64,000 nt of DNA from an uncultured Thiothrix sp. (GTDB taxonomy: Bacteria; Pseudomonadota; Gammaproteobacteria; Thiotrichales; Thiotrichaceae): NCBI RefSeq assembly GCF_937873765.1, contig NZ_CALMZC010000039.1:124001-188000 (forward strand), written 5' to 3'. The notes below the pieces were generated by a model, which made no database searches, was not told where the DNA came from, and saw nothing but the letters and a program-made list of their open reading frames with translations. Made by a program: the position numbers and the translations under genes. This document shows positions 6,953 through 61,052 of the stretch, piece by piece. Each line of letters begins with the position of its first letter. Within the stretch, counting starts at the first letter, position 1.

Positions 6953-8341
6953 ATGTTTGAAAATTTAAGTGATCGTCTTTCGAAAACGGTAAAAAAACTA
7001 CGTGGGCAAGCGCGTTTAACCGATGAAAATATAAAAGATGCCTTGCGTGATGTGCGAATGGCTTTATTAGAGGCGGATGTTGCACTGCCAGTGGTGCGTG
7101 ATTTTATCGGTCGTATCCGTGAACGTGCAGTCGGACAAGAAGTTTTAGAAAGCCTTACCCCCGGTCAAGCTCTGATTAAAGTCGTTCATGAAGAGCTGAT
7201 TGAGATTATGGGGCAGGCAAATGAAACTCTCAACCTGAATGCTCAGCCACCTGCTGTTATTTTGATGGCTGGCTTACAAGGTGCGGGTAAAACTACTACC
7301 GTAGGTAAATTAACTCGCTTTTTGAAAGAAAAAAGTAAAAAAACGGTGATGGTTGCTAGCTGTGACGTGTATCGTCCTGCGGCGATTAAGCAGCTAGAAA
7401 CTATTGCTAAGCAAACTGAAGCAGTGTTTTTCCCCAGTGAACCCCATCAAAAGCCTGCTGATATTGCTTTAGCGGCACTCGCGCAAGCTAAACGCCAGTA
7501 TATGGATGTTTTGATCATCGATACTGCAGGCCGTTTGCATATTGATGCGGAGATGATGGAGGAGATCAGCCAGCTCAATACGCTGCTCAAGCCGGTTGAA
7601 ACATTGTTCGTTGTCGATAGTATGACTGGGCAAGATGCGGCCAATACCGCTAAAGCTTTTGGTGATGCTTTGCCTTTAACGGGTGTAGTTCTGACTAAGA
7701 CCGATGGTGATGCACGCGGCGGTGCGGCTTTGTCGGTGCGGCATATTACCGGCAAGCCCATTAAATTCATGGGGGTAGGTGAAAAGCTTGATGCTTTAGA
7801 GCCTTTCCATCCGGATCGGATGGCTTCACGTATTCTAGGCATGGGCGACGTGCTCAGTTTAATTGAGCAAGCCCAGCATAAAGTTGACCATGAAAAAGCT
7901 CAAAAGCTAGCGCGTAAACTCAATAAAGGCAAAGGTTTTGATTTCGAAGATCTGCGTGACCAGATGAATCAAATGCTAAAAATGGGTGGCATGAGTAGCT
8001 TGTTGGATAAGTTACCCGGTATGGGCGCTATGCCTGCGCATGTGAAAGAGCAAGCCAATGATAAAGAAATTCGCCGTATGATCGCGATTATTAATTCAAT
8101 GACCTTAGAAGAGCGCCGTAATCCTGAACTCATTAAAGCCTCACGTAAACGTCGCATTGCCACCGGCAGTGGTCTGCAAGTTCAGGATGTGAATCGTTTA
8201 CTCAAGCAACAACAGCAAATGAGTAAAGTCATGAAGCAGTTTTCAAAAGGTGGTGGGATGCGTAGACTAATGCAGAATATGAAAGGGAAGTTACCGACTG
8301 GGAGTGGTTTTCCTCCGCTAGGAGGTGGTTTCTCTGGTTAA
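6953..8341 (+). CDS. ffh: Signal recognition particle protein Ffh (SRP54)
   Basis: 462 aa, full length. Ffh binds signal sequences at the ribosome together with 4.5S RNA and delivers nascent membrane proteins to FtsY. The N domain (MFENLSDRLSKTVKKLRG) is followed by the G domain with GLQGAGKTTT near residue 107, DTAGRLHID, and TKTDGDARGG. The M domain is methionine-rich (QMNQMLKMGGMSSLL, GMGAMPAHVK, RRLMQNMKGK) and ends in a Gly-rich tail. The start matches the family; no strong Shine-Dalgarno is visible upstream. The ribosomal/tRNA-modification genes that usually follow directly are here separated by a 5.5 kb accessory block. Confidence 0.98.
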   Translation: MFENLSDRLSKTVKKLRGQARLTDENIKDALRDVRMALLEADVALPVVRDFIGRIRERAVGQEVLESLTPGQALIKVVHEELIEIMGQANETLNLNAQPPAVILMAGLQGAGKTTTVGKLTRFLKEKSKKTVMVASCDVYRPAAIKQLETIAKQTEAVFFPSEPHQKPADIALAALAQAKRQYMDVLIIDTAGRLHIDAEMMEEISQLNTLLKPVETLFVVDSMTGQDAANTAKAFGDALPLTGVVLTKTDGDARGGAALSVRHITGKPIKFMGVGEKLDALEPFHPDRMASRILGMGDVLSLIEQAQHKVDHEKAQKLARKLNKGKGFDFEDLRDQMNQMLKMGGMSSLLDKLPGMGAMPAHVKEQANDKEIRRMIAIINSMTLEERRNPELIKASRKRRIATGSGLQVQDVNRLLKQQQQMSKVMKQFSKGGGMRRLMQNMKGKLPTGSGFPPLGGGFSG

Positions 8342-8591: not shown

Positions 8592-9155
8592 ATGAAAATC
8601 AAGACTCCGTATACTTTAGCGGCGATCTTTGCGGTAAGTGTGTTTGCCTCTGGCTGTAGCCAAATGGCAGCACAGCAAGCTGCACCAGCTCCTGAAGCCA
8701 AACCAGCCGCACCAAAAACAATCGTTGACTGCAGCAAGTGCCATAAACCAGCTCCAGCCCCAGCGGCTACTCCAGCAGGTGGTGCACATACCCATCCAGC
8801 AATTCCTGGTTGTACTAATTCTACTACCCATACTCATCCCTTTACTAACGCTAAACATCAGCATGCGTATAGTTGTAAAGGTGGTAAAAAAACAGTTACT
8901 AAGCGTGTAGTGAAGCAAACTAAAAAGACAGCAGTTGCTAATAAGTGGGCACATACCCATCCAGCGATTCCTGGTTGTACTGATTCCATCACTCACACCC
9001 ATCCTTACAACAATGCTAACCACTCACACCATTACAGTTGCAAAGGTGGTCAAAAACAACAGCACATTGTAGTGCCCCAAGTTAAAGCAAAAGGTAATTT
9101 CAAGGGGCCAGTTCAAATTGATACGGGTGTAATGCAAACTTACAAAAAACCGTAA
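8592..9155 (+). CDS. Outer-membrane-type lipoprotein with two His/Cys-rich repeats
   Basis: 187 aa, family not recognised. The signal peptide ends in the lipobox FASGC, followed by SQMAAQQ, the same start as two neighbours (10717 and 11393). The body holds two 30-residue units beginning H-T-H-P-A-I-P-G-C-T and ending H-x-H-x-Y-S-C, at 8787-8876 and 8952-9041, exactly 165 bp apart. A C-terminal block VKAKGNFKGPVQID...M..Y is shared with three other lipoproteins nearby. The many His and Cys residues suggest metal binding or disulfide-stabilised repeats. The start ATG is preceded by the purine-rich AACGAAAGAGA also found before the 11393 gene. Confidence 0.85.
   Translation: MKIKTPYTLAAIFAVSVFASGCSQMAAQQAAPAPEAKPAAPKTIVDCSKCHKPAPAPAATPAGGAHTHPAIPGCTNSTTHTHPFTNAKHQHAYSCKGGKKTVTKRVVKQTKKTAVANKWAHTHPAIPGCTDSITHTHPYNNANHSHHYSCKGGQKQQHIVVPQVKAKGNFKGPVQIDTGVMQTYKKP
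8787..9041 (+). repeat. Two 30-codon His/Cys units, period 165 bp
   Basis: Unit 1 is 8787-8876 and unit 2 is 8952-9041. Both start at H-T-H-P-A-I-P-G-C-T and end at Y-S-C. Each has six to eight histidines and two cysteines. The spacer encodes a Lys/Thr/Val-rich linker. The same units with the same 165-bp spacing occur in the paralogue at 11651-11905. Confidence 0.85.
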
Positions 9156-9214
9156 AATGAGTGATTTTTGAGTTGCAGAAAGCTTCTGTGATTCAATAAA
9201 ATCTACCCATACCA

Positions 9215-9245
9215 GCCCGATGTCAGATGATATCGGGCATTTTTA
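9215..9245 (+). terminator. Rho-independent terminator after the first His/Cys lipoprotein
   Basis: GCCCGAT (9215-9221) pairs with ATCGGGC (9232-9238), followed by ATTTTTATT. The 10-base loop is followed by a short T tract, so the 8592 gene is probably monocistronic. Confidence 0.8.
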
Positions 9246-9362
9246 TTAGTAGCTTCTTTATTTTTATAAAACGGTTAAATTTGGTAATGTTGTAAATAAT
9301 CAGTTACTGTTGCACTCTTGCCTCACAACTGTATTGGTTCTTGTCGCACAAGCATAGAAATT

Positions 9363-10601
9363 ATGGATAAATTTAAAGCGTTATTACTACTTTTGGTGTG
9401 GATTTGCTTAGCACCGTTTAGCTCCGCCTTTGCATCTGTTTGGAGTTCTGACTCGCAATGGGATGAATCTTGGGAAAATCGCTATCGCCAATGGGTAGTT
9501 CAAAACTGGAAAGATGATATCTTCATGAATCCAGCCAAGCCTATCTATTACAAATTTGAAAACGACTGTGCTGATGCAACTTATATGATGCGCCTCATTT
9601 TCTCTTATGAGCATAGATTGCCTTTCGTAGTAAATAATCAGCAAACGCCAAGCCAAGTGATTAGCAATAATATGGGCATTTGGGACAATCTACCTGAACC
9701 ACAACGTGTGCGCCGTTTTATGGATTATGTTGCTGATATGACGAGCACTAAGTCCTTAAGACAAGATACTTATCCGGTTGCGTTGAATGACATTAAAGCG
9801 GGTGACGTTTATGTAGCACCGGGTGTACACTCTTATCAAATTGTAGAGGTGACTGAAACCGGTATTGCTGAAGTCATGGCCTCGACTACGCCAAAAACTT
9901 CACGTTTCTTACTACGTACTCCATCCTTTCCGTTTTATGTACCCGAAGATAAGACATTTGCTGATGGTTATCGTCGCTTTAAGCAACCTCAAAATATTCG
10001 TCAGCCTGCCAGCGCACAGCCGGGTTATAGCGAAGAACAGTTCCAGTTAGCGGCTGATTTGAAATACGACTATGTGGCGTTCACTGATATTATTTCTAAA
10101 AAGCTAGGCAAACGCTCAGAGCGCCCTGATGAAAAAACTACTCGTTTATTATTAGCACTTTGTATGTATGCTAATGATCGTAGCGTTTACGTATATGATG
10201 CACTGTGGCATCTACAGGAGATTCGTAAAGGTGGACGTCAATGTATGAGTGCTAAAGAGTTTGATGATTATTCAACGCCAGGACGCGATAAACGTTTAGG
10301 CATGTTCTTTAGTTCCATTCGCCATCACCTAGATCGCATTGGCCGCTTTGATCCACAATCCCAACCTGCCCGTTGGGCGAAAGCGGTGTTCTCGATTGAT
10401 GAGCCACCAGCCGGTGAAATGAAACATTTAAATGATTTCTGCATGGTACAAATGACCTTAGGCGAAGAGTTATATATGAGTTTGCGTGAGTTACGCAAAA
10501 ACTTAGAAGGTGGTCACTTAGTATCTGACCCTCATGCACCACTACAGTATCGTTGGGGCATAGTTAAAACACCTTACGCACCTACTTGCCCAACTTATTA
10601 A
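9363..10601 (+). CDS. Secreted protein of unknown family, possible papain-like/transglutaminase-like fold
   Basis: 412 aa from the ATG at 9363. That start places a clean signal peptide (KALLLLLVWICLAPFSSAFA) at the N-terminus; an upstream TTG at 9318 would add 15 residues ahead of it. I do not recognise the family. A cysteine in NDCADATYMMRLIF (Cys at about mature residue 60) followed by GDVYVAPGVHSYQIVEV resembles the Cys and His blocks of NlpC/P60 or transglutaminase-like hydrolases. The C-terminal half is helical and charged with no recognisable motif. It lies between members of the lipoprotein family and may act on or with them; that link rests on position only. Confidence 0.75.
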   Translation: MDKFKALLLLLVWICLAPFSSAFASVWSSDSQWDESWENRYRQWVVQNWKDDIFMNPAKPIYYKFENDCADATYMMRLIFSYEHRLPFVVNNQQTPSQVISNNMGIWDNLPEPQRVRRFMDYVADMTSTKSLRQDTYPVALNDIKAGDVYVAPGVHSYQIVEVTETGIAEVMASTTPKTSRFLLRTPSFPFYVPEDKTFADGYRRFKQPQNIRQPASAQPGYSEEQFQLAADLKYDYVAFTDIISKKLGKRSERPDEKTTRLLLALCMYANDRSVYVYDALWHLQEIRKGGRQCMSAKEFDDYSTPGRDKRLGMFFSSIRHHLDRIGRFDPQSQPARWAKAVFSIDEPPAGEMKHLNDFCMVQMTLGEELYMSLRELRKNLEGGHLVSDPHAPLQYRWGIVKTPYAPTCPTY

Positions 10602-10664
10602 GTAATTAGGGTGATTGTTGTAAAAAAGTCAGGGGAATTGTTTTATCTTACCAACAATTTTGAA

Positions 10665-10688
10665 TATACTTGTAGAACCTTGTTCCCT
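10665..10688 (+). promoter_or_regulatory. Predicted promoter and leader of the Pro-rich lipoprotein
   Basis: TATACT at 10665-10670 is preceded by TTTTGAA and followed after 11 bases by GTTCCCT (10682-10688). The same arrangement, TTTGACTATACT then GTTCCCT, stands before the 11393 gene. No convincing -35 hexamer at 17 bases is visible. Confidence 0.45.
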
Positions 10689-10716
10689 AATTAACGTTAT
10701 ATAGAGACCGAAGACT

Positions 10717-11103
10717 ATGAAGATGAAAGCTCAACTCTCTCTCGCAGCAGTTATTCTGGCTGGTTTATTAGCATCTGGTTGTAGCCAAATGAGTGCTCAA
10801 CAAGTCGTAGAGCCACCGCCAGCACCAACTCCAGATAAAGTTGTCTTAGATTGTAGCAAATGTGGCCCAGCACCTGTTGTAAAACCACGTCCAGTTGTGA
10901 AACCACGCCCAGTGGTACGTCCACGTCCAGTGGTACGTCCACGTCCAGTTGTGAAGCCACGTCCTCCAGTTGTTGTTCGTCCACAACCACGCCCACCAGT
11001 TGTGGTAGTACCACCAGTAAAAGTACCACCAGTGAAGGCAAAAGGTACCTATCGTGGTAAGATCCAAATCGATCAAGGCGTGATGAAGCAATACCAACAG
11101 TAA
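10717..11103 (+). CDS. Proline-rich lipoprotein with PVV(K/R)PR repeats
   Basis: 128 aa, family not recognised. Lipobox LASGC is followed by SQMSAQQ as in the neighbours. A DCSKC motif follows, as in the 8592 and 11393 products. The middle is five tandem PVV(K/R)PR hexapeptides (10873-10962) and further Pro/Val/Arg-rich sequence. The C-terminus VPPVKAKGTYRGKIQID...M..Y is the shared terminal block. The rigid, positively charged polyproline stretch would suit spanning or binding the peptidoglycan layer, but this is inference. Its own promoter and terminator are visible, so it is probably transcribed alone. Confidence 0.85.
   Translation: MKMKAQLSLAAVILAGLLASGCSQMSAQQVVEPPPAPTPDKVVLDCSKCGPAPVVKPRPVVKPRPVVRPRPVVRPRPVVKPRPPVVVRPQPRPPVVVVPPVKVPPVKAKGTYRGKIQIDQGVMKQYQQ
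10873..10962 (+). repeat. Five tandem 18-bp repeats encoding PVV(K/R)PR
   Basis: Five in-frame copies of an 18-bp unit (consensus CCAGTTGTGAAACCACGT, with K/R variation) encode PVVKPR, PVVKPR, PVVRPR, PVVRPR, PVVKPR. Copy number is likely to vary between strains. Confidence 0.85.
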
Positions 11104-11151
11104 GAATTGATGTGGCTAAGCTTTTGTAGCTAAACCACAACAAAACTGCTC

Positions 11152-11187
11152 AAGCCCTTTACTTTGTAAAAAGTAAGGGGCTTTTTG
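11152..11187 (+). terminator. Rho-independent terminator after the Pro-rich lipoprotein
   Basis: AAGCCCTTTACTT pairs with AAGTAAGGGGCTT and is followed by TTTTTG. The stem tolerates one bulge. It ends transcription of the 10717 gene. Confidence 0.8.
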
Positions 11188-11346
11188 TTTGTGAGTTTTG
11201 AACCCCAGAAGCAAGCTACTACAAGGATTTGCTAGACGATTGCTTGTGCATTGAACAGTTGAGTGGGGGTTAGAAAAAAATATAAAAAATGTCGTAAAAA
11301 AAACTCAAAACTCGGTTTTATGCGCATCAATTTTAAAAACTTTGAC

Positions 11347-11368
11347 TATACTCGAGAGTGCGTTCCCT
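11347..11368 (+). promoter_or_regulatory. Predicted promoter and leader of the second His/Cys lipoprotein
   Basis: TATACT at 11347-11352 within TTTGACTATACT, then GTTCCCT at 11362-11368. It matches the element at 10665-10688. The leader continues with AACAACGAAAGAGA just before the ATG at 11393, a stretch also found before the 8592 gene. Confidence 0.45.
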
Positions 11369-11392
11369 TAAACAACGAAAGAGACCACTATT

Positions 11393-12025
11393 ATGAAAAT
11401 GAAAACCCAATTTTCACTAGCTGCCATTTTTTTGGCAGGGCTACTCACTTCTGGTTGTAGTCAGATGAGTGCACAGCAGGTTGCACAAGCTGCACCTCCA
11501 CCAGCACCGGCTCCTGGCAAAGTTATTACCATTACTGACTGCAGTAAATGTCCTCCACGTCCACGTGTTGGTGGTGGTACAGTGCGTAAAGGTGGTGGGG
11601 GCGTACGTAGAGGAGGAGGGGTACGTAGAGGAGGTGGGTTAGGTGGTCGTCATTCTCATCCTGCGATTCCTGGTTGTACTAATTCAGTTACGCATAGTCA
11701 CCCATTCACTAATCCACGCCATACGCATAAATACAGTTGTAAAGGTCGCAAGCCCAATAGAGGGGGGAGAGGCCCAATTAGAAAGCCATTACCTCCAACA
11801 GGTGGCAAATGGGCACATACCCACCCAGCGATCCCTGGTTGCACTAACTCTATAACTCATACTCATCCATATACCAATCCTAACCACTCACATCATTACA
11901 GCTGTCGTGGTGGGATGCGTCCTCAGCAACAACAGCAAATTATTGTTCCGCCTGTTAAAGCCAAAGGCAATTTCAAAGGCCCCATTCAAATCGATCAAGG
12001 CACAATGAAGCAATATCGCCAATAA
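11393..12025 (+). CDS. Lipoprotein with two His/Cys-rich repeats and Gly/Arg-rich linker
   Basis: 210 aa, a paralogue of the 8592 product. Lipobox LTSGC, then SQMSAQQ and DCSKC. A Gly/Arg-rich linker (GGGVRRGGG repeated) precedes two 30-residue His/Cys units at 11651-11740 and 11816-11905, again exactly 165 bp apart. Each unit begins H-x-H-P-A-I-P-G-C-T-N-S and ends Y-S-C. The C-terminus is the shared VKAKGNFKGPIQIDQG-T-M-K-Q-Y block. The conservation of repeat spacing and ends, against divergent linkers, indicates duplication followed by functional constraint on the units. Function unknown; metal binding is plausible. Confidence 0.85.
   Translation: MKMKTQFSLAAIFLAGLLTSGCSQMSAQQVAQAAPPPAPAPGKVITITDCSKCPPRPRVGGGTVRKGGGGVRRGGGVRRGGGLGGRHSHPAIPGCTNSVTHSHPFTNPRHTHKYSCKGRKPNRGGRGPIRKPLPPTGGKWAHTHPAIPGCTNSITHTHPYTNPNHSHHYSCRGGMRPQQQQQIIVPPVKAKGNFKGPIQIDQGTMKQYRQ
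11651..11905 (+). repeat. Two 30-codon His/Cys units, period 165 bp (paralogous copy)
   Basis: Units at 11651-11740 and 11816-11905, homologous to those at 8787-9041 with the same spacing. Diagnostic residues are H-x-H-P-x-I-P-G-C-T at the start and H-x-H-x-Y-S-C at the end. Confidence 0.85.
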
Positions 12026-12060
12026 AAGGCTGTAAGCAAGCATTAGGAAACAATAGCTAA

Positions 12061-12094
12061 CAAGGTACCCATTCTAAGAGAGTGGGTATCCTTG
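12061..12094 (+). terminator. Hairpin after the second His/Cys lipoprotein
   Basis: CAAGGTACCCATTCT pairs with AGAGTGGGTATCCTTG with small bulges. No T tract follows, so termination is less certain than for the neighbours. Confidence 0.45.
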
Positions 12095-12250
12095 CCGTTT
12101 ATCTAGTAGTCATTTAACAACTGCCGATAAAATTTATTGGTTAAGCTGTCATTAGGGCGGGTCTTAGCATAGTAAGGCTGTCTGCAATGGGCTTATAAGA
12201 TACCTAGCGTATTTTTAATAACAATAAATTTTAAATAGAGGCAACCAATA

Positions 12251-12568
12251 ATGAAAATTAAGAATCGGCATGTAGCTATGGCTATTTTGATTGCGGGTAT
12301 AGCCGCGGCAGGTTGTAGCCAACAGCAAGCAGCGCCACCGGTTGAAACGGTTCCAGAGCCAATTGTTGAAGCTCCCCAACCAGAGCCTGTGCCCGTCATT
12401 GAAGAGCCAGCCCCGATTGTACAACCAGCACCACCTGTACAGCGCCCTCGTCCAGTCCACCGGCCGGTTCAGCGTCCGCCCGTCAAAGTGCCACCTGTTA
12501 AGGCTAAGGGTAATTACCGTGGTGCAGTGCCTATTGATCGTCGTGCTATGCAGCAGTATCAATACTAA
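12251..12568 (+). CDS. Short Pro/Glu-rich lipoprotein with the shared C-terminal block
   Basis: 105 aa, fourth member of the family. The lipobox is AAAGC followed by SQQQA; the middle is Pro/Glu/Val-rich (EPIVEAPQPEPVPVIEEP), then Pro/Arg-rich. The C-terminus VPPVKAKGNYRGAVPID...M..Y is the same block as in the three paralogues. The middle differs from the 10717 product by being acidic first and basic later. It lacks the GTTCCC leader seen before its paralogues. A purine-rich ATAGAGGCAA precedes the ATG. Confidence 0.8.
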   Translation: MKIKNRHVAMAILIAGIAAAGCSQQQAAPPVETVPEPIVEAPQPEPVPVIEEPAPIVQPAPPVQRPRPVHRPVQRPPVKVPPVKAKGNYRGAVPIDRRAMQQYQY

Positions 12569-12579
12569 AAAACTGTTAC

Positions 12580-12612
12580 TGTTATGGTTGAGTATGGTAC
12601 TCAACCATAACA
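12580..12612 (+). terminator. Perfect 15-bp hairpin downstream of the Pro/Glu-rich lipoprotein
   Basis: TGTTATGGTTGAGTA (12580-12594) pairs perfectly with TACTCAACCATAACA (12598-12612) across a 3-base loop. No T tract follows. It may terminate or protect the mRNA 3' end, or be a protein-binding palindrome. Confidence 0.6.
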
Positions 12613-12791
12613 ATGTAAATGGAAGCCGACTGACAAGAATTATGAATAGCTAAAGTTTTTTGTTAAACCCCATGCATTAAAAAATTAATGTTCCTGAAGC
12701 TAGTATTTGCTAGATATTTATTATAAAACTACGTGCGCACGGGTTGGGGATGTGCGTTCCTTCTAGATTATTTATTCCTTTGGGTGGAGTT

Positions 12792-13727
12792 ATGGTGAAC
12801 TCTTTTGTCAATACAGCTTTAAAAAGAAAGATTAGTTTTGTGGCTTATGGCAGTGCTATTTTAGCCTTAGCGAATTTAGCAGGTTGTTCTACGAACACGG
12901 TCGAAACAGAAGCAAAGCCTTCGACACCACAGAAATTGGCGACCACTAAGCCGCAAACTTCTATCAGAATTATTCAAAGGAATCTTGCTGTAACAGCACA
13001 ATCGTCACCACCACGCCGTGGCAAAGATCAGCATCAATTGGAGTTCGAACAAAAACAGCGTTGGTATCATCAACAATGGGAAGTTGCCCAGCGTGCGAAT
13101 GAAGCCAGACAACGTGCACAAATGGCTTGGCAAATACAACGTTCGCAACGTGTAGTTAACACGGATTATTCTGAACGCTTGGCTGAAGCTGCAGTGGATC
13201 GTTTACGTTATCGCGTTAGCTATAATGGTGCGTATATTCCTATAAGTTATCCGAATGGCGATGTCCCTTCCAATATTGGCGTTTGTACTGACACCGTTAT
13301 TCGTTCTTATCGTCGCTTGGGTGTCGATTTGCAACGTCTAGTCCATGAAGATATTTCGCGCGCATTCTATTCTTATCCAAATTTGCCGAAGTGGGGCTTG
13401 CAAGGTCCGGATACTAATATCGATCATCGGCGTGTCCATAATTTAAAAGTCTTTTTCACTCGTCATGGTCAACGTTTACCTGTCACTGGTAATCCTAGTG
13501 ATTATCGTCCTGGTGATTTAGTCACTTGGAGTTTGGGGGGTGATCAAGAACATATTGGCATTGTGGTCGATCAGCGCTCGCCTTCTGATCCACGCCGTTT
13601 CATGATCGTGCATAATATTGGCCAAGGTGAAAAGCTAGAAGATGTACTCTTCAAAATGCCTATTAGCGGTCACTATCGCTATTTCCCAGGCTCACGTCAG
13701 CCACAACTGGCTTCAGTTCAGTATTAG
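12792..13727 (+). CDS. DUF1287 lipoprotein, predicted NlpC/P60-like hydrolase
   Basis: 311 aa from the ATG at 12792, which has GGTGGAG just upstream; a TTG at 12744 is rejected. The lipobox LAGC lies near residue 31, then a Gln/Arg-rich linker. The C-terminal about 190 residues are a clear DUF1287 domain: YPNGDVPSNIGVCTDTVIRSY, LVHEDISRAFYSYP, NIDHRRVHNL, GDLVTW, EHIGIVVD, VHNIGQG, GHYRYF. The family shares the Cys (GVCTD) and His (HIGIV) pattern of NlpC/P60-like amidases, but its reaction is not established. It closes the lipoprotein block and could act on cell wall or lipoprotein substrates. Confidence 0.85.
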   Translation: MVNSFVNTALKRKISFVAYGSAILALANLAGCSTNTVETEAKPSTPQKLATTKPQTSIRIIQRNLAVTAQSSPPRRGKDQHQLEFEQKQRWYHQQWEVAQRANEARQRAQMAWQIQRSQRVVNTDYSERLAEAAVDRLRYRVSYNGAYIPISYPNGDVPSNIGVCTDTVIRSYRRLGVDLQRLVHEDISRAFYSYPNLPKWGLQGPDTNIDHRRVHNLKVFFTRHGQRLPVTGNPSDYRPGDLVTWSLGGDQEHIGIVVDQRSPSDPRRFMIVHNIGQGEKLEDVLFKMPISGHYRYFPGSRQPQLASVQY

Positions 13728-13882: not shown

Positions 13883-14134
13883 ATGGTCAATATTCGTCTG
13901 GCTCGTGGTGGTTCTAAAAAGAATCCATTCTATAGCATAGTGGTCACTGATAAACGCAAGCCTCGTGACAGCGGCTATATTGAGCGTGTGGGTTTCTTTA
14001 ATCCAGTTGCTCGCGGTCAAGAAATTCGTTTACACGTTGAGCAAGAGCGTGTGCAATATTGGATTTCTAAAGGTGCACAACCTAGTGAGCGCGTAGCAAA
14101 GTTGTTGAGTGAATCAGCAAAAGCAGCTGCTTAA
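13883..14134 (+). CDS. rpsP: 30S ribosomal protein S16
   Basis: 83 aa, full length. S16 helps assemble the 5' domain of the small subunit. The start [17 protein letters not shown] and the block [14 protein letters not shown] are diagnostic. It is first in the conserved operon rpsP-rimM-trmD-rplS; 13 bases separate it from rimM. Confidence 0.98.
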
Positions 14135-30149: not shown

Positions 30150-33100
30150 TTAATCCACCGTCACGGTAATGACTAAGTTTACAGTCTGGCCGGTGCTTAA
30201 ATTACCTAAATCCCAAATTCCAGTCACTGGATCATAACTTCCTTGCTGTGCCAGTGGAGCAACACCTGTCTTTAAACTCACACCGCTAGGTAATTGGTCA
30301 GTAATTTTTATCTGAGTCGCTGTACTTGGGCCTTGATTCGTCGCGGTTAACTCATAGGTCAAAGTATCGCCACGCTTAGCCGTGCTCGCGCTTAAGATTT
30401 TCGTGAGCTGTACATCAACTAATTTAGGCAGAGTACATTGTTCATCAGGAAAGACATAATTCGTTGGAACGATTAAGTCTTGGCGGCTCGTATCGGTTTG
30501 ATTATGTAACCAATAAACTTCAGTGATGCTATATTGAGTTTGACCATTTGCACCTTGAGTTCTGTCTAAAATTAACTGACCTAAGGCTTTCATGGCGATT
30601 TTCTGGCTGGCTGTCCAAGCAGTGTCATCAATAGCTGTTTCAACTTTGCTATAGTCTTCATTCCAGTTGGTGTAATACCAGACTAGATTTTGTAAGAGGG
30701 TATCGAGGCTTTGCGTGGCAGTACCAAACTCGGTTTTGACACTGGCTAAGACTTCAAGATCACCTAAAGCGCTGAACAAGCGTCTTAAATGATCAATTCG
30801 CGTAGCACTCAAGCTTTGACGGTCTGAAGCATTGACTTTGAACCGATCATCCACGATTGGATCAGCGTCTTGCTTCTCTAGGCAGAAGCCAATCAGATTA
30901 AGATCACCAACTTCCACATTGTAAGCATTAGGATGATGCCAAGGGCTAGTACCATACGCAGGCATGATCGCTTGGCTGCCCATAGGAACTAACGGTGCGG
31001 TACATTGCGCATGGAATAAACCCACATCGTAACTATAGTCGGTAGCAGTCAGATTAATATCTTTAATGACAAACTGATTCGCAATTCCAGTGACTACTGC
31101 ATCTGAGTCTAATAAATCACCAGTGGTATCTGCAGGGCTTAAAACCCAGTTATTGGGAGCGGTGAATTTTAAGCAGTAACTAGTATTGACTAGGTTATTA
31201 AACTCATACCAACCCGTTTTAGTCGTCATGGTGTTAGCGATTTCAGAGCCGGTACAAGTGGCGTTGTCATAGAGTGCTACTGAGATTTGATCAATCCCCG
31301 CTTCATTTGCATCTTGGATTCCATCCATATCTTGGTCATACCAGACATAGTTGCCGAGGCTAAAATTGGGTTTAAAGCCAAAATCAAAGCCTTGGTTGTC
31401 CTTACCAGTGCTATCTGCGGTAAAATCAATGCTAGCAAGTCCGCTATTAAAGCTGGCATCATTGTCTTTGAGATCTGTGACACGATCATTGCTAGAGTCC
31501 CCCTCTGCATTTGTGCTAGTGAGTGGATAATTCACTAAATTGGCTTCATTAGGATCAATGCTCAGTGTACAACTCGCACCTGATAGTAGAACGTTGGCTG
31601 CATTGCCGCCGGCCAAATTACTGAATTGATATAAGCCGGCTTCATTTTCTGGTGTAGAGGCATTATCAGCTAAGGTAGTCGTGGTAACTGACTTAGTGCC
31701 ACATTGAAGTTTAACTTGTACTCCCGGAATTCCAGTTTCATTAGGATCTTGCAGACCATCACCGTTGGTATCTAACCAAACAAAATTACCGATAGCATTT
31801 GGCACAATCGTCACGCTCACATCATTGGCGATGACTTGTAACGACAGTTCAGGAACCCGCCCACCAAAGTTATTGGTGTAGATATCACCCGTTGAAGCTG
31901 CAGTCACTTTGCCATTAGCATCAAGGTCAGGCGTACCACCGATATTGCCTGTTGGGCTTAATTGTACTAACACTGATTTGCCGCCAGCAGCTCCTGTTAA
32001 AGCGGGTGTAGTGAAGCGCAGACCAGTAATCGATTCAGGGGTTAAAGCACCACAGCTCAGTGGAGCAAGGCTGGTGCAAGCAGTCCATGGAGTAGCGCCT
32101 GTCCCAGAAACATTACCACCAGCATATTTATTACCATTGTTCACATACATCAGATAACACAAGTCACCTGCTGCGGGAATTTTGCCTGAGGGTTGATTGC
32201 TCTCATGGCAAGGATCTTGTTGTATGCTGTTAGACGCAGCATTAGTTGCATAGAACACTTCGCTATGGCTAGCCGTGACTTTGCTTACCGCATAAATACC
32301 GTTGAATTTGCTGCTTGGGTGGCGGGTGCTCGCTAGACCACTGGAGTTTTGCCCACTACCATCATTGTTATAAGGCAAAATATCAATGAAATCGCCGCTA
32401 CTATAATCTTCTCCACCTAAGTTGGTATATACCAACTCAAACTCGAATGGTTCATTCCGCCCATGGATTGGATAATCAACGTCTTTGAAGACATCTAAGC
32501 CAAAGTTAGCCAAGATATTCAGTTGATATTTTACCTTAACAGGATCACTAGCTGTATCAGCATCACTGCCATCAACACCAATGTCTGAAGTGAGTGTGGC
32601 ATTATTGATAAAAGTACCAGTGGTTAGTTTTGGATCTACGTCTACGCTATAGCGGATCATGGGGAGTTGGTCACCCGTATTCACATCCGCAAAATCCCAT
32701 TTTAATGAGCGCAGGGCGGTATTTTCTGCTGAACTTAAACTGACGCTAGGAGTAGAGGCTAAATAGTCGGCACGATTTAACCAAGTTGTACCTCCATCCA
32801 CGGAGAATCGTTCAGAGCCAAGTACGTAATCAGTACCGACAGGTAGGCTATCCGTTAAAGTTGCCGTGGTGATACTCGGGTTCCAACTGCCGAAGACTTG
32901 AGGCTTTAGAATGAACTGTACCCGGTCACCCCCCCTTACGACTTTGAGACCGCGTGGCTCAGTGTATTTTTCCAAGGCAATGGAAGAGGGGACAATTACA
33001 ACCCGATCTGCATCGTAGCCAGCATAAGAGAAGCCTGCATTATCAGGATCAATCGAAATACCACTCATATCCTTCCAAGCACCCCAAGTACCTGTAGAGC

Positions 33101-35153
33101 CATCATTGCGAATAGCCATATAATTGGGTAAATAAGTAACTCCTGTGGTTGAGTTAGTATAGCCTGTTGCAGAGGGCTTAATCTTTAATAAATGATTGGT
33201 AATAAAGGCCATGCGGGTAGTGGTAGGGTCAAGGCTCAGCAAAAAGCTCTTATTCAGAACAGTTTGCATACGTAATTTACTAACCTTGGCTGTTCCCCCT
33301 ATTAAGGCCGGATCAGTGACCCAATCATTGGGAGCATCTGCTAATTGACTCGTCTGATTGACACCATCTAAGACGAACTTGCCATCCCCATTCACATCAT
33401 CCTCACAAGTTTCATCACGCTGTGCGAGCAAGCCGGAGTGCGGATCATCTGAATATAAGTAGGTTATTAAACCTAGTTTATCTGCACTATAAGTATTGAC
33501 TGTTGGCCCCCAACTCACAATGTTAGGGTTGTATTCGGTATGATTCCAACCGTAACCTAAATCTGTACGATTGGGTTCAGCTAGGCCAACGTATTCAAAT
33601 TGGTCGGTATCGAGTTTTTCGCATAATTGTGACCTAGCGCCATTAATAAAGCGGTAATCCCAAATATTTAGCAGTATCGGAATCGTGGCTCCCAGTGCAT
33701 ATTTCTTCGCTCCGGTTTTGCTGGGAGGCCAAGGGCCGTCAAAACCTTTAGCTGCAGTCCAGCTACCTGGGCCACTATAAATGAGTGGATAAGTTACATA
33801 ATCTGGGAAAGGCTCACCAACGCCATTGTAATTAAGTAAATTATTATTAGAGACATCTTCTGTTGATACAGGATTGAAACCAATAACTTTAGGTGTTCCA
33901 GAGGTGGAGTCGTAAACGCCTACCGAGTTAATTGTTTGTACGGTACAAGGATAGGGGGGGCAGCCTTGATGAGTCGCAATATCAGCCGGTTCGCTATACC
34001 AAACATTAAGGCGTAATTCGATTAAATTAGAATCATTATCGGGGTCACGCACATCGATATTTTTCAGATCAATGGCAATATTCGGATCATTCACCCCATC
34101 CGGTGTGAGCGTTGGCCCTAATTGATCAAGAATATGATTCACCTGTGTACAAGTCACACTAGCATTAGGGCCATGATTGCCGACTAATTCACAAGCTGGT
34201 TTTTTCGAGTCCCAAGTATAGAGGACTGCATTGGTGGACACGTTAATGGGTACACCTGAGCTAGAAGTCACTGCTTTAGTATTATTATTATTATTGTCAT
34301 CGGTATAATGATCGAGTAGCAAATAATCCTGCTCAAAATCACCGCCGGCTTCATTCGGTGCATCGGCTAGCATCGAGCCTTTTTGGTATTTAACTTTAAT
34401 GACATACTCGACGACTGAACCATTGGTAGTGCCGTCCGCCCCTTTATGTGCGGGTGCAATATACAGCGGCTTACCGGTTGCCGGATCAAGTGCAGTGACT
34501 TGTAATTCTTTAGTAGTGTCAACCCGGAAGTTAGCGGTAACGGTGACATCTGTAGGGCCAGCCGTCGCAACATTCGAGCCTTGAGCTTGAGATGAAACCG
34601 TTGCATTCACATGCTGATCATTCAGAGTAATCTCGCTGCCATCATACGAGGCTGCAATGGCTCGCGCCACTGGATAAAAAGCACGGGTCGTCCCTTCTAC
34701 AGCAGGGCCAAGATTACAAAATAGTGTCCGTTTATCTGTAGAAATACTCGAGACTGGATTCACTTCTTGCGGATCAGTTTTACAGCCTGTGGGAATCTCA
34801 ATCCAAGCTTGGCGTTTATCCAACTGTACGGTGCTAGTCAGGCTCTGCACGTCATTGTCATTGACTGAGACCTCCACCAGATAAGTGATCGAGTCTTGTA
34901 AACGCGTGACTTTATTATCTTCGCTCGCATCCATACCCGCAGTGGCTAGATTACCGTCCCAAGTCGTGCTATCAAAGGGTTCTGAGCCAGTTTTAGCCAC
35001 CGAAATAGTCGTGTTGACAACCGGAGCTGCGGTATTACCTGCCGCATAGGATCGGGGGCTGAACCCTAGGATAAGAAGAAAAGTGAGCAGCAGTGGAGCT
35101 AAAACTAAAAAACGTGCCCAAAAAGGAATACGCACAGCAAGGTTCTGATTCAT
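30150..35153 (-). CDS. Very large secreted surface protein with DUF11 and SdrD B-like domains
   Basis: 1667 aa. A long signal peptide ends near residue 38 (FSPRSYAAG). The first 1100 residues are a series of beta-rich segments with DUF11-like traits (RGGDRVQFILKPQV, TATLTDSLPVGTDYVLG). Two SdrD B-like/Cna-B-like domains begin near 1121 (IGNFVWLDTNGDGLQDPNE) and 1266 (LGNYVWYDQDMDGIQDANE), each with an Asp-rich calcium-type loop. A mostly helical insert (about 1405-1570) contains GFCLEKQ (Cys 1424) and LQNLVWYYTN (Gln 1488), reminiscent of thioester adhesin domains. A DUF11 repeat ends the protein (about 1577-1667). No autotransporter barrel, sorting signal or membrane anchor is seen. Likely an adhesin or matrix protein. 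Confidence 0.85.
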   Translation of the reverse strand: MNQNLAVRIPFWARFLVLAPLLLTFLLILGFSPRSYAAGNTAAPVVNTTISVAKTGSEPFDSTTWDGNLATAGMDASEDNKVTRLQDSITYLVEVSVNDNDVQSLTSTVQLDKRQAWIEIPTGCKTDPQEVNPVSSISTDKRTLFCNLGPAVEGTTRAFYPVARAIAASYDGSEITLNDQHVNATVSSQAQGSNVATAGPTDVTVTANFRVDTTKELQVTALDPATGKPLYIAPAHKGADGTTNGSVVEYVIKVKYQKGSMLADAPNEAGGDFEQDYLLLDHYTDDNNNNNTKAVTSSSGVPINVSTNAVLYTWDSKKPACELVGNHGPNASVTCTQVNHILDQLGPTLTPDGVNDPNIAIDLKNIDVRDPDNDSNLIELRLNVWYSEPADIATHQGCPPYPCTVQTINSVGVYDSTSGTPKVIGFNPVSTEDVSNNNLLNYNGVGEPFPDYVTYPLIYSGPGSWTAAKGFDGPWPPSKTGAKKYALGATIPILLNIWDYRFINGARSQLCEKLDTDQFEYVGLAEPNRTDLGYGWNHTEYNPNIVSWGPTVNTYSADKLGLITYLYSDDPHSGLLAQRDETCEDDVNGDGKFVLDGVNQTSQLADAPNDWVTDPALIGGTAKVSKLRMQTVLNKSFLLSLDPTTTRMAFITNHLLKIKPSATGYTNSTTGVTYLPNYMAIRNDGSTGTWGAWKDMSGISIDPDNAGFSYAGYDADRVVIVPSSIALEKYTEPRGLKVVRGGDRVQFILKPQVFGSWNPSITTATLTDSLPVGTDYVLGSERFSVDGGTTWLNRADYLASTPSVSLSSAENTALRSLKWDFADVNTGDQLPMIRYSVDVDPKLTTGTFINNATLTSDIGVDGSDADTASDPVKVKYQLNILANFGLDVFKDVDYPIHGRNEPFEFELVYTNLGGEDYSSGDFIDILPYNNDGSGQNSSGLASTRHPSSKFNGIYAVSKVTASHSEVFYATNAASNSIQQDPCHESNQPSGKIPAAGDLCYLMYVNNGNKYAGGNVSGTGATPWTACTSLAPLSCGALTPESITGLRFTTPALTGAAGGKSVLVQLSPTGNIGGTPDLDANGKVTAASTGDIYTNNFGGRVPELSLQVIANDVSVTIVPNAIGNFVWLDTNGDGLQDPNETGIPGVQVKLQCGTKSVTTTTLADNASTPENEAGLYQFSNLAGGNAANVLLSGASCTLSIDPNEANLVNYPLTSTNAEGDSSNDRVTDLKDNDASFNSGLASIDFTADSTGKDNQGFDFGFKPNFSLGNYVWYDQDMDGIQDANEAGIDQISVALYDNATCTGSEIANTMTTKTGWYEFNNLVNTSYCLKFTAPNNWVLSPADTTGDLLDSDAVVTGIANQFVIKDINLTATDYSYDVGLFHAQCTAPLVPMGSQAIMPAYGTSPWHHPNAYNVEVGDLNLIGFCLEKQDADPIVDDRFKVNASDRQSLSATRIDHLRRLFSALGDLEVLASVKTEFGTATQSLDTLLQNLVWYYTNWNEDYSKVETAIDDTAWTASQKIAMKALGQLILDRTQGANGQTQYSITEVYWLHNQTDTSRQDLIVPTNYVFPDEQCTLPKLVDVQLTKILSASTAKRGDTLTYELTATNQGPSTATQIKITDQLPSGVSLKTGVAPLAQQGSYDPVTGIWDLGNLSTGQTVNLVITVTVD

Positions 35154-53718: not shown

Positions 53719-53795
53719 CGGGGTATAGCGCAGCCTGGTAGCGCGTCTGTTTTGGGTACAGAATGTCGGGAGTTCGAATCTCTCTACCCCGACCA
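53719..53795 (+). tRNA. tRNA-Pro (anticodon TGG)
   Basis: 77 bases with encoded CCA. The acceptor stem CGGGGTA pairs with TACCCCG; the anticodon stem TCTGT/ACAGA encloses loop TTTGGGT with anticodon TGG. First of four tRNAs upstream of tig. Confidence 0.95.
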
Positions 53796-53846
53796 CTTTT
53801 TCAAAGTGGTCTATGATCAAGTTAAATCTTATATAGTCTGCCTTCT

Positions 53847-53923
<77 letters not shown>

Positions 53924-53963
53924 TTGTTGTCCCGATGAGCCTCGATCAATAAAGTTTCCAGGT

Positions 53964-54040
53964 GGTGGCTGTAGCTCAGTTGGTAGAGTCCAGGATTGTG
54001 ATTCCTGTCGTCGTGGGTTCGAGTCCCATCAGCCACCCCA
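53964..54040 (+). tRNA. tRNA-His (anticodon GTG)
   Basis: Acceptor GTGGCTG/CAGCCAC with an encoded extra G at -1 (53964) opposite C73, the histidine identity pair. Loop TTGTGAT carries GTG. CCA is encoded. Confidence 0.95.
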
Positions 54041-54140
54041 ACCTTACTCTACATTTGGTTATACATCTGGCAATTTGCTGTGTATAATCGCCTCCTTTCT
54101 AGATTTATGGGTAACTACCACCTTTTATCTAGCGAAATAT

Positions 54141-54225
54141 GCGAAAGTGGCGGAATTGGTAGACGCACTGGATTTAGGTTCCAGCGCCGCAAGGCGTGAG
54201 AGTTCGAGTCTCTCCTTTCGCACCA
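54141..54225 (+). tRNA. tRNA-Leu (anticodon TAG)
   Basis: 85 bases with a long variable arm (CGCCGCAAGGCG). Acceptor GCGAAAG/CTTTCGC; loop TTTAGGT carries TAG; CCA encoded. A TATAAT at 54083-54088 suggests a separate promoter for this tRNA and perhaps tig. Confidence 0.95.
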
Positions 54226-60746: not shown

Positions 60747-60822
60747 GGGTGATTAGCTCAGTTGGTAGAGCGTCGCCCTTACAAGGCGAATGTCGGGGGT
60801 TCAAGTCCCTCATCACCCACCA
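60747..60822 (+). tRNA. tRNA-Val (anticodon TAC)
   Basis: 76 bases with encoded CCA. Acceptor GGGTGAT/ATCACCC; loop CTTACAA carries TAC. Probably on the hupB transcript. Confidence 0.95.
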
Positions 60823-60842
60823 TCGTTGTTGATAGCTTTCGC

Positions 60843-60919
60843 GGAGTGGTAGTTCAGTTGGTCAGAATACCGGCCTGTCACGCCGGGGGTCGCGGGTTCG
60901 AGCCCCGTCCACTCCGCCA
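60843..60919 (+). tRNA. tRNA-Asp (anticodon GTC), copy 1
   Basis: 77 bases. Acceptor GGAGTGG/CCACTCC, G73, CCA encoded. Anticodon arm CGGCC-TGTCACG-CCG gives GTC. Identical to copy 2. Confidence 0.95.
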
Positions 60920-60929
60920 ATTATTTCTA

Positions 60930-60956
60930 AAGGATGCTTATTCAGCATCCTTTTTT
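60930..60956 (+). terminator. Terminator between the two tRNA-Asp copies
   Basis: AAGGATGCT (60930-60938) pairs with AGCATCCTT (60944-60952) and runs into TTTTT. It lies only 20 bases before copy 2. Confidence 0.85.
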
Positions 60957-60975
60957 ATATCTAAAGTTCTGTCGC

Positions 60976-61052
60976 GGAGTGGTAGTTCAGTTGGTCAGAA
61001 TACCGGCCTGTCACGCCGGGGGTCGCGGGTTCGAGCCCCGTCCACTCCGCCA
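60976..61052 (+). tRNA. tRNA-Asp (anticodon GTC), copy 2
   Basis: 77 bases, identical to copy 1 133 bp upstream, including TCGC before it and CAA after the CCA. A strong terminator sits directly upstream and no promoter is evident in the 20 bases between. Confidence 0.95.

Follow-up and report, generated by a model that had tools for sequence, protein, structure and literature searches.

Why should four related lipoproteins and two putative cysteine hydrolases occupy the space between ffh and rpsP, and which of these genes belong together? The question is raised by a stretch of 64,000 nucleotides (nt) of an uncultured Thiothrix sp. (contig NZ_CALMZC010000039.1 of assembly GCF_937873765.1, positions 124,001 to 188,000; hereafter the window), taken from a genome of 4.01 Mb, in which ffh (6953-8341) and rpsP (13883-14134) bracket, in this order and all on the plus strand, the genes for the lipoprotein Lpp1, a secreted protein that we call EnzA, the lipoproteins Lpp2, Lpp3 and Lpp4, and a DUF1287 lipoprotein. 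Judged by EnzA, Thiothrix eikelboomii ATCC 49788, at 93% identity, is the closest named relative, and Thiolinea disciformis comes next at 78%. Thiothrix belongs to a family of sulfur bacteria, most of them filamentous; it and its relatives form multicellular, often sheathed filaments, and to our knowledge the genes that shape their envelope have been little studied. An earlier annotation made from the nucleotide letters alone (the sequence-only reading) had proposed that the lipoproteins form one surface or periplasmic layer which the two enzymes process or anchor. In this work we describe a smaller conserved part, a lipoprotein paired with EnzA, which suggests a so far undescribed means by which the cell wall is held or remodelled.

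The conserved unit consists of two genes, a CSQ-type lipoprotein that usually carries a module rich in His and Cys (the His/Cys module), followed by secreted EnzA. The loci compared were the best 80 of the 85 recovered with an EnzA profile in GTDB species genomes, by a scan that required one of two conserved peptides; EnzA was separated from its relatives by an identity of at least 53%, and linkage was scored when a lipoprotein with the His/Cys module and/or a KAKG tail was located upstream of EnzA on the same strand. Such a lipoprotein is present, 181-738 nt away, in 42 of the 43 testable EnzA orthologues, which span Thiothrix, Thiolinea, Thiofilum, Leucothrix, Cocleimonas and relatives. The lipobox of these 42 lipoproteins was recognized by pattern in 36 and by eye in five more, and in one it was lost at a contig end. 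The sole EnzA without an upstream lipoprotein is a second copy (L149), and the other copy of the same assembly (L139) has one. No upstream lipoprotein was found at any of the 21 testable low-identity loci (19 of a murJ-side paralogue, EnzA2, and 2 of an unnamed-gammaproteobacterial branch), nor at any of the 12 Bdellovibrionota loci with an EnzA relative; L150, L179, L188 and L197, one of them an EnzA orthologue, have too little upstream DNA and were excluded from the counts of 43 and 21.

The pair has been found at several chromosomal sites: between ffh and rpsP (15 loci and the window), between atpC and glmU/glmS (20 loci), at metG-lptD-surA (5) and between dapB and htpG (2), with two loci unassigned. 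Among the flanking genes, metG, glmU, lptD and murJ were confirmed by Pfam, and atpD/atpC, glmS, surA, dnaJ, dapB, htpG and a trmA/rlmD-like gene were named by eye from the sequence. In a tree of 78 EnzA-type proteins, from which the partial EnzA loci L175 and L196 and also L201 were left out as shorter than 300 aa, a single branch (100/99) unites the 43 EnzA rows and spans the four contexts, the atp-glm (19 rows) and metG-lptD (5 rows) versions are each one clade (100/99), and 20 paralogue rows form a separate branch (99/95). On the most parsimonious reading, EnzA acquired the lipoprotein a single time, at its base; and since the four contexts fall within one EnzA clade and two of them form a single clade each, the pair would have survived at least three changes of site without being split. 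An EnzA-type protein is encoded in all 36 genomes of the same family and in 1 of 21 others, and EnzA proper in 33 of the 36; the three remaining assemblies (G027, G030 and G032, each of at least 310 contigs) have the paralogue only, G030 also showing the start of an EnzA at a contig end. Across the class, an EnzA-type gene occurs in 7 of the 369 genomes sampled, 4 of them outside the family and all in one other family.

The six genes of the window are separated by spacers of 115-289 nt, and two strong terminator-like hairpins, one after Lpp1 and the other after Lpp2, are located inside the block (Table 1). A six-gene operon was consequently rejected as the unit, given the two-gene core and these hairpins. 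The suggestion that the block interrupts a usual ffh-rpsP neighbourhood held in the comparison: ffh ends 0.1-1.0 kb 5' of rpsP in 10 of 17 other genomes (9 of 15 within the same GTDB family), small intervening genes being unexamined, and in the remaining 7 no ffh was present within the up to 1.5 kb of sequence covered upstream of rpsP. In the genera that use other EnzA sites, the distance is 0.2-1.0 kb in 9 of 15 family genomes, and no ffh was seen in the covered stretch of the other 6. A recent foreign insertion between ffh and rpsP was rejected, both by the G+C content (42-45% there, 40-47% in the rest of the window) and by the family-wide occurrence of the genes.

Table 1. Features of the block between ffh and rpsP, in positions of the window.
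Feature	Position	Strand	Description
Lpp1	8592-9155	+	core gene; lipoprotein (SGC-SQM) immediately 5' of EnzA, with two His/Cys modules and a PG_binding_1 tail in shortened form
His/Cys module 1 of Lpp1	8778-8882	+	DNA repeat family D1
His/Cys module 2 of Lpp1	8943-9047	+	DNA repeat family D1
C-terminal block of Lpp1	9063-9152	+	shortened PG_binding_1, as read from alignments
Terminator-like hairpin with T run, Lpp1-EnzA spacer	9215-9238	+	
EnzA	9363-10601	+	secreted; ATG start; longer frame from TTG 9318
Lpp2	10717-11103	+	lipoprotein, Pro-rich (PRPVVRP) middle, tail as in Lpp1
Terminator-like hairpin 3' of Lpp2	11152-11183	+	
Lpp3	11393-12025	+	lipoprotein, two His/Cys modules, tail as in Lpp1
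His/Cys module 1 of Lpp3	11642-11746	+	DNA repeat family D1
His/Cys module 2 of Lpp3	11807-11911	+	DNA repeat family D1
C-terminal block of Lpp3	11933-12022	+	shortened PG_binding_1, as read from alignments
Lpp4	12251-12568	+	short lipoprotein AGC-SQQ, Pro-rich, tail as in Lpp1
DUF1287 (PF06940) lipoprotein	12792-13727	+	ATG 12792; LAGC-STN; papain-like amidase family; accessory gene of the ffh-rpsP version

The sequence-only reading had described the four lipoproteins as sharing a lipobox followed by C-S-Q and a C-terminal block, with middles of two kinds, and this description was borne out. By pattern, a lipobox with Ser after the Cys (SGC-S or AGC-S) is present in all four, the starts being SGC-SQM in three and AGC-SQQ in one; the C-terminal block KAKGxYxG is also common to all four, and the middles are of the His/Cys type in Lpp1 and Lpp3 and Pro-rich in Lpp2 and Lpp4. 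The genes share DNA repeats as well: the 107-nt repeat of family D1, which corresponds to the His/Cys module, occurs twice in Lpp1 and twice in Lpp3, families D5 and D7 are present four times each, and D3 and D6 three times each.

The origin of the C-terminal block is seen in the relatives: in other genera, the C-terminus of lipoproteins linked to EnzA reads LQxKLKAKGYYKGPIDGVVGxxTRxALQRFM. The peptidoglycan-binding domain PG_binding_1 (PF01471) exceeded the Pfam cut-off in 7 of the 10 lipoproteins of relatives that were scanned, matching 34-40 of its 57 positions, and the three below the cut-off are from the window's genus (g1), Thiothrix (g2) and Thiofilum (g4). The window block, VKAKGNFKGPIQID…MKQYRQ, aligns on the PG_binding_1-type core but has lost the first helix, together with a small number of residues; the tails of Thiothrix and Thiofilum are intermediate between this form and the full one, and a comparison of profiles of window-type tails and relatives' tails gave a probability of 96.6 and an E value of 5.8e-10 over 25 columns. 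On these alignments the window tail is a shortened PG_binding_1 domain, by descent, and a peptidoglycan-related block of this kind fits the anchoring that had been suggested for the lipoproteins. The same KAKGNYKGPVQMD tail is also found in a 136-aa secreted protein without a lipobox, distant from EnzA, in a Thiothrix-type genome (L226 5868-6278, G033).

The His/Cys module was counted by a profile search over all reading frames of the sequence covered, which recovered 129 distinct full copies. In 128 of them the six His, arranged as three HxH, are all present, and one copy has five, the profile having been built from copies gathered by patterns that required most of these His, not the Cys. The number of Cys is even in 128 of the 129 copies (none in 13, two in 111, four in 4) and three in a single copy (L147); an earlier pattern-based count, in which flagged rows were inspected by eye, agrees, with 133 of 134 distinct copies even and L147 again the exception. 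There are two alternative Cys pairs, PxC…YxC and CHxH…HCH, which occur together in L023, and a gain and loss of Cys in pairs would be what disulfides predict. The module had no match beyond chance-like ones in Pfam, NCBIfam or the PDB, and its identity with a known domain was rejected, given that the Pfam and PDB matches were weak and those of whole lipoproteins to NCBIfam and Pfam fell far below the cut-offs. Among the 369 genomes of the class it was present in three family genomes, together with one short match elsewhere that we took as chance (G160, 23 positions in a 32-aa frame), and among 398 genomes of the phylum in the window's own only. It is a compact and apparently family-specific domain, unnamed in the libraries searched.

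The module is also found in other proteins, combined with SH3_3 domains in some and placed N-terminally in a beta-propeller protein. The window's genome itself encodes a 182-aa secreted SH3_3 protein with one module (G000:C54:73843-73995; L005 1435-1983, minus strand), and in relatives the SH3_3 proteins of this kind contain as many as five (L029). A module followed by PG_binding_1 also lies inside a 1766-aa alpha-2-macroglobulin (L134 3957-9257, G018:C11), which looks like the insertion of a wall-binding cassette. In some lipoproteins of the window's genus (L100 and L102), the His/Cys module is replaced or accompanied by a second small repeat with paired Cys, CWHGRNAxGQCxPxP.

EnzA has two parts, a predicted NlpC/P60-like domain (about residues 28-210) and a helical C-terminal one (about 253-412) with four conserved Cys at 267, 294, 360 and 409. 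Its AlphaFold2 model, made from 31 sequences, has a predicted local distance difference test score (pLDDT) of 85 and a predicted template modelling score (pTM) of 0.78, and a structural aligner placed the first domain on NlpC/P60 hydrolases in 6 of the top 9 rows, using model residues 22-209; the NlpC/P60-like character that had been read from the Cys/His pattern of this protein is supported, as a prediction from the model, by these alignments. The two motifs singled out by that reading proved to hold the best conserved residues: NDCAD contains Cys69 and VHSYQ contains His156, and these two, together with Asp68, Gly147, Thr175 and Pro177, are invariant in all 78 EnzA-type sequences, Bdellovibrionota included. 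In the model Cys69 opens a helix (68-83) and His156 a strand (156-163), the places expected for the catalytic pair of NlpC/P60 enzymes. Gly147 is followed by Asp148, which is kept in just 1 of 12 Bdellovibrionota. Two Pfam families gave sub-threshold leads, DUF4846 (E 3.4e-5, 23.9 bits against a cut-off of 37) and DUF3318 (16.2 against 25.9), and a search of EnzA against PDB sequences returned chance-like matches only. In extracts from PMC10318531, DUF4846 is suggested to be another NlpC/P60-like wall-modifying domain with a 'GD' motif. Compared with the papain-like wall enzymes of NlpC/P60 (PF00877) and DUF4846 (PF16138), EnzA is alike in predicted fold, in the Cys at a helix start, in the His at a strand start and in the GD motif, but it is unrecognised by the first family and below the cut-off of the second. 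It is described here as NlpC/P60-like and is not assigned as a member of PF00877.

EnzA also differs from its paralogue EnzA2, which adjoins murJ and/or the trmA/rlmD-like gene in several genomes. Seventeen positions are fixed in EnzA (in at least 42 of 43 sequences) and mostly different in the paralogue; for instance Glu170, in the strand right after His156 (A169-E170-V171), is present in 43 of 43 EnzA and in none of the 35 other rows, and further EnzA-specific residues are found in the helical domain. Downstream of the EnzA relative in three Bdellovibrionota loci (L202, L205 and L210) comes a short gene (212-228 aa), whose product has a membrane-type N-terminus and might be another kind of partner. 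Two loci titled Aquificaceae bacterium MAG 28 (L162 and L182; QOAQ01000056 and QOAQ01000089) have EnzA and EnzA2 of the Leucothrix/Cocleimonas type and are probably misbinned or mislabelled.

The second putative enzyme of the block has a different standing. Its assignment to DUF1287 was confirmed (PF06940, E 4.4e-64, 215.6 bits against a cut-off of 25, positions 2-163 of 163), and within this family it is a full member that differs from others in being lipidated, by pattern, and in its longer N-terminal part; the other copy of the genome (G000:C37) is 51% identical over 183 residues and has a different N-terminus. A DUF1287 gene is present in the block at all 12 ffh-rpsP loci with the downstream side covered, besides the window, and at one of the two dapB-htpG loci. 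None was found beside EnzA at the 20 atp-glm loci, of which L158, L159 and L196 have little or no downstream DNA, or at the 5 metG-lptD loci, of which L163 has one beyond lptD and surA. These absences rejected it as a core member, and at least one DUF1287 gene exists somewhere in all 36 same-family genomes. DUF1287 is thus an accessory gene found mainly in the ffh-rpsP version of the locus, and of the idea that the six genes recur together, the part that stood is the lipoprotein and EnzA in their four contexts. In the extracts from PMC10318531, DUF1287 has a Cys-His-His triad and is grouped with the amidases, its function being called unknown.

Our best explanation, to which we give an even chance of being right, is a two-gene envelope module of wall-holding lipoproteins and a partner wall hydrolase, extended in the window to four lipoproteins and a second enzyme. 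The lipid would fix each lipoprotein in the outer membrane, a flexible Pro/Gln-rich linker would cross the periplasm, and the PG_binding_1-type tail, recognisable in Leucothrix and Cocleimonas and shortened in Thiothrix, Thiolinea and Thiofilum, would touch the peptidoglycan. The His/Cys modules could be small disulfide-stapled units whose three HxH, by binding a metal, connect neighbouring chains or attach a partner. As a dedicated partner, the NlpC/P60-like cysteine enzyme EnzA would cut or trim peptidoglycan peptides at the sites of the lipoproteins, and the pair would in this way couple outer-membrane attachment to wall remodelling, with a possible role in the shape of the filament or septum. 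As to expression, the spacer between Lpp1 and EnzA, which contains the hairpin with a T run, has a folding z of -3.1, and a strict-pattern hairpin is present in 14 of 42 spacers of relatives (28 are without one; for L147 the spacer was taken from a farther gene), against 0.7% of shuffles. These hairpins suggest that the lipoprotein may sometimes have a short transcript to itself, with less of the enzyme being produced.

MepS is an NlpC/P60 enzyme and NlpI a tetratricopeptide repeat (TPR) protein. In NlpI-MepS and related pairs of Escherichia coli, according to extracts from PMC11211486 and PMC7049810, an outer-membrane lipoprotein is associated with a peptidoglycan endopeptidase. By analogy, the pair described here probably works most like such lipoprotein/hydrolase pairs, without being a member of that family. 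In contrast to NlpI, the lipoproteins are low-complexity chains, most of them with His/Cys modules and a wall-binding-type tail, and no TPR model was among the Pfam matches of the four window lipoproteins at E ≤ 1; EnzA has in addition a helical domain with conserved Cys, and the two genes are neighbours. Relative to lipoproteins with PG_binding_1, those of the relatives end in that domain, whereas those of the window's genus retain just the KAKGxYxGPI core and a short end. Lpp and Pal are outer-membrane-to-wall tethers, and joining the outer membrane to the wall may be a shared job; the lipoproteins of the pair, however, showed no OmpA-like domain in the Pfam scan and no Lpp-like helix was seen, and they are linked to an enzyme.

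Several observations weigh against the wall-holding explanation. Regarding the enzyme, the Z scores of the alignments to NlpC/P60 structures (3h41 7.0, SagA 6.8, 4fdy 6.3, RipB 6.1, CwlO 6.0 and RipA 5.8) are below 8, a range in which the aligner cautions that a match may reflect a common arrangement. Foldseek gave no match of the model in the PDB at E ≤ 0.001, Pfam NLPC_P60 did not match EnzA at E ≤ 1, and the third catalytic residue could be Ser174 (77 of 78), Thr175 (78 of 78) or the EnzA-specific Glu170. Regarding the lipoproteins, PG_binding_1 was unmatched by the Pfam scan in all four of the window, and tails shortened by the first helix of this domain may no longer bind peptidoglycan. 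The middles of Lpp2 and Lpp4 are without the His/Cys module, the conservation of His in this module is partly by construction, degenerate copies that lack the third HxH occur in lipoproteins of L120, L126 and L237, and the AlphaFold2 model of Lpp3 is poor (pLDDT 57), with mere hints of one hairpin per module. Codon usage showed no sign of the high expression that structural amounts of the lipoproteins would call for and was uninformative, the lipoproteins scoring 0.60-0.68 and the genes rimM, trmD and the one after them 0.61-0.67. Regarding the linkage, the gap exceeds 600 nt in L155 and L159, in L155 with a possible gene in between. The sequence-only reading had named lipoproteins scattered without the enzymes as evidence against it, and this was found in part: extra CSQQ/HC lipoproteins distant from EnzA do occur in some genomes (L227, L239 and L240), but these genomes also have an EnzA-linked copy (L124, L121 and L116).

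The linkage could also be explained by plain shared ancestry, the two genes being neighbours that never happened to separate; since the families in which the loci occur are related, the 42 cases cannot be counted as independent. Nevertheless, the pair is found at four unrelated sites with changing flanking genes, and the number, length and middle of the linked lipoproteins vary freely among loci, which makes this account highly improbable in our view. If the linkage is functional, papain-like EnzA might take the lipoproteins themselves as substrate, cleaving or trimming them, for example for their release from the wall or the membrane, with no action on peptidoglycan. The near-obligate lipoprotein linkage of EnzA and not of its paralogue would be expected in such a case, and Glu170 and the other EnzA-specific residues look as if the substrate had changed when the lipoprotein was gained. 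But EnzA2 keeps the Cys and His without a lipoprotein, its position beside murJ favours the wall as the common and ancestral substrate of both proteins, and the best fold matches of EnzA are peptidoglycan hydrolases; we regard the lipoproteins as an unlikely sole substrate. An activity of another type, in which EnzA would be a transglutaminase-like acyltransferase that cross-links the lipoproteins through their Gln-rich N-termini, either with one another or with the wall, seems very unlikely. Many copies have a Gln-rich stretch after the lipidated Cys, L120 with about a dozen QVAGG-like units, and papain-like folds include a transglutaminase family, discussed alongside NlpC/P60 in the extracts from PMC10318531; this segment, however, is of low complexity and very variable, and the Cys and His are shared by EnzA2, to which no lipoprotein is linked. 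A transglutaminase was absent among the matches listed in the structural search of the EnzA model, which proves nothing.

The His/Cys module invites two further readings, neither of which we consider probable. In one of them, improbable on balance, the lipoproteins would form a metal-handling layer that buffers or senses periplasmic Zn, Cu, Ni or a similar metal, and the neighbourhood of EnzA would reflect co-regulation only. The three HxH, kept in 128 of the 129 full copies, 13 of which are without any Cys, agree with it (the profile was partly chosen for His), but no constant neighbour in the locus maps stood out as a metal transporter or regulator, most neighbours having not been annotated singly and the shared ones being housekeeping genes; moreover, two of the four window lipoproteins have no module, and the modules are fused to peptidoglycan-binding domains. 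The other reading takes the module as a new metal-bridging wall element, with which the outer membrane, the wall and periplasmic proteins would be knit into a scaffold stabilised by metal and disulfides, and EnzA would fix or release the lipoproteins. It derives from the presence of the module in lipoproteins, SH3-domain proteins, an alpha-2-macroglobulin and a beta-propeller protein, and we regard it as unlikely.

What appears new in this locus is the pairing of lipoprotein and enzyme and one new small domain, the His/Cys module. Among the matches listed in the open literature for Thiothrix lipoproteins (judged by title), histidine-rich wall-binding lipoproteins, DUF1287 and the Thiothrix filament and sheath (20 of 627 for the last), none was found to deal with these lipoproteins. 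A pair that was kept through several chromosomal moves, with the enzyme in nearly all genomes of the family, is a concrete and testable candidate for a role in the envelope.

Elsewhere in the window, a gene of the minus strand (30150-35153) encodes a protein of 1667 aa with SdrD_B-like and DUF11 domains, likely a large surface protein, and two clusters of tRNA genes are found at 53719-54222 (four tRNAs) and 60747-61049 (three).

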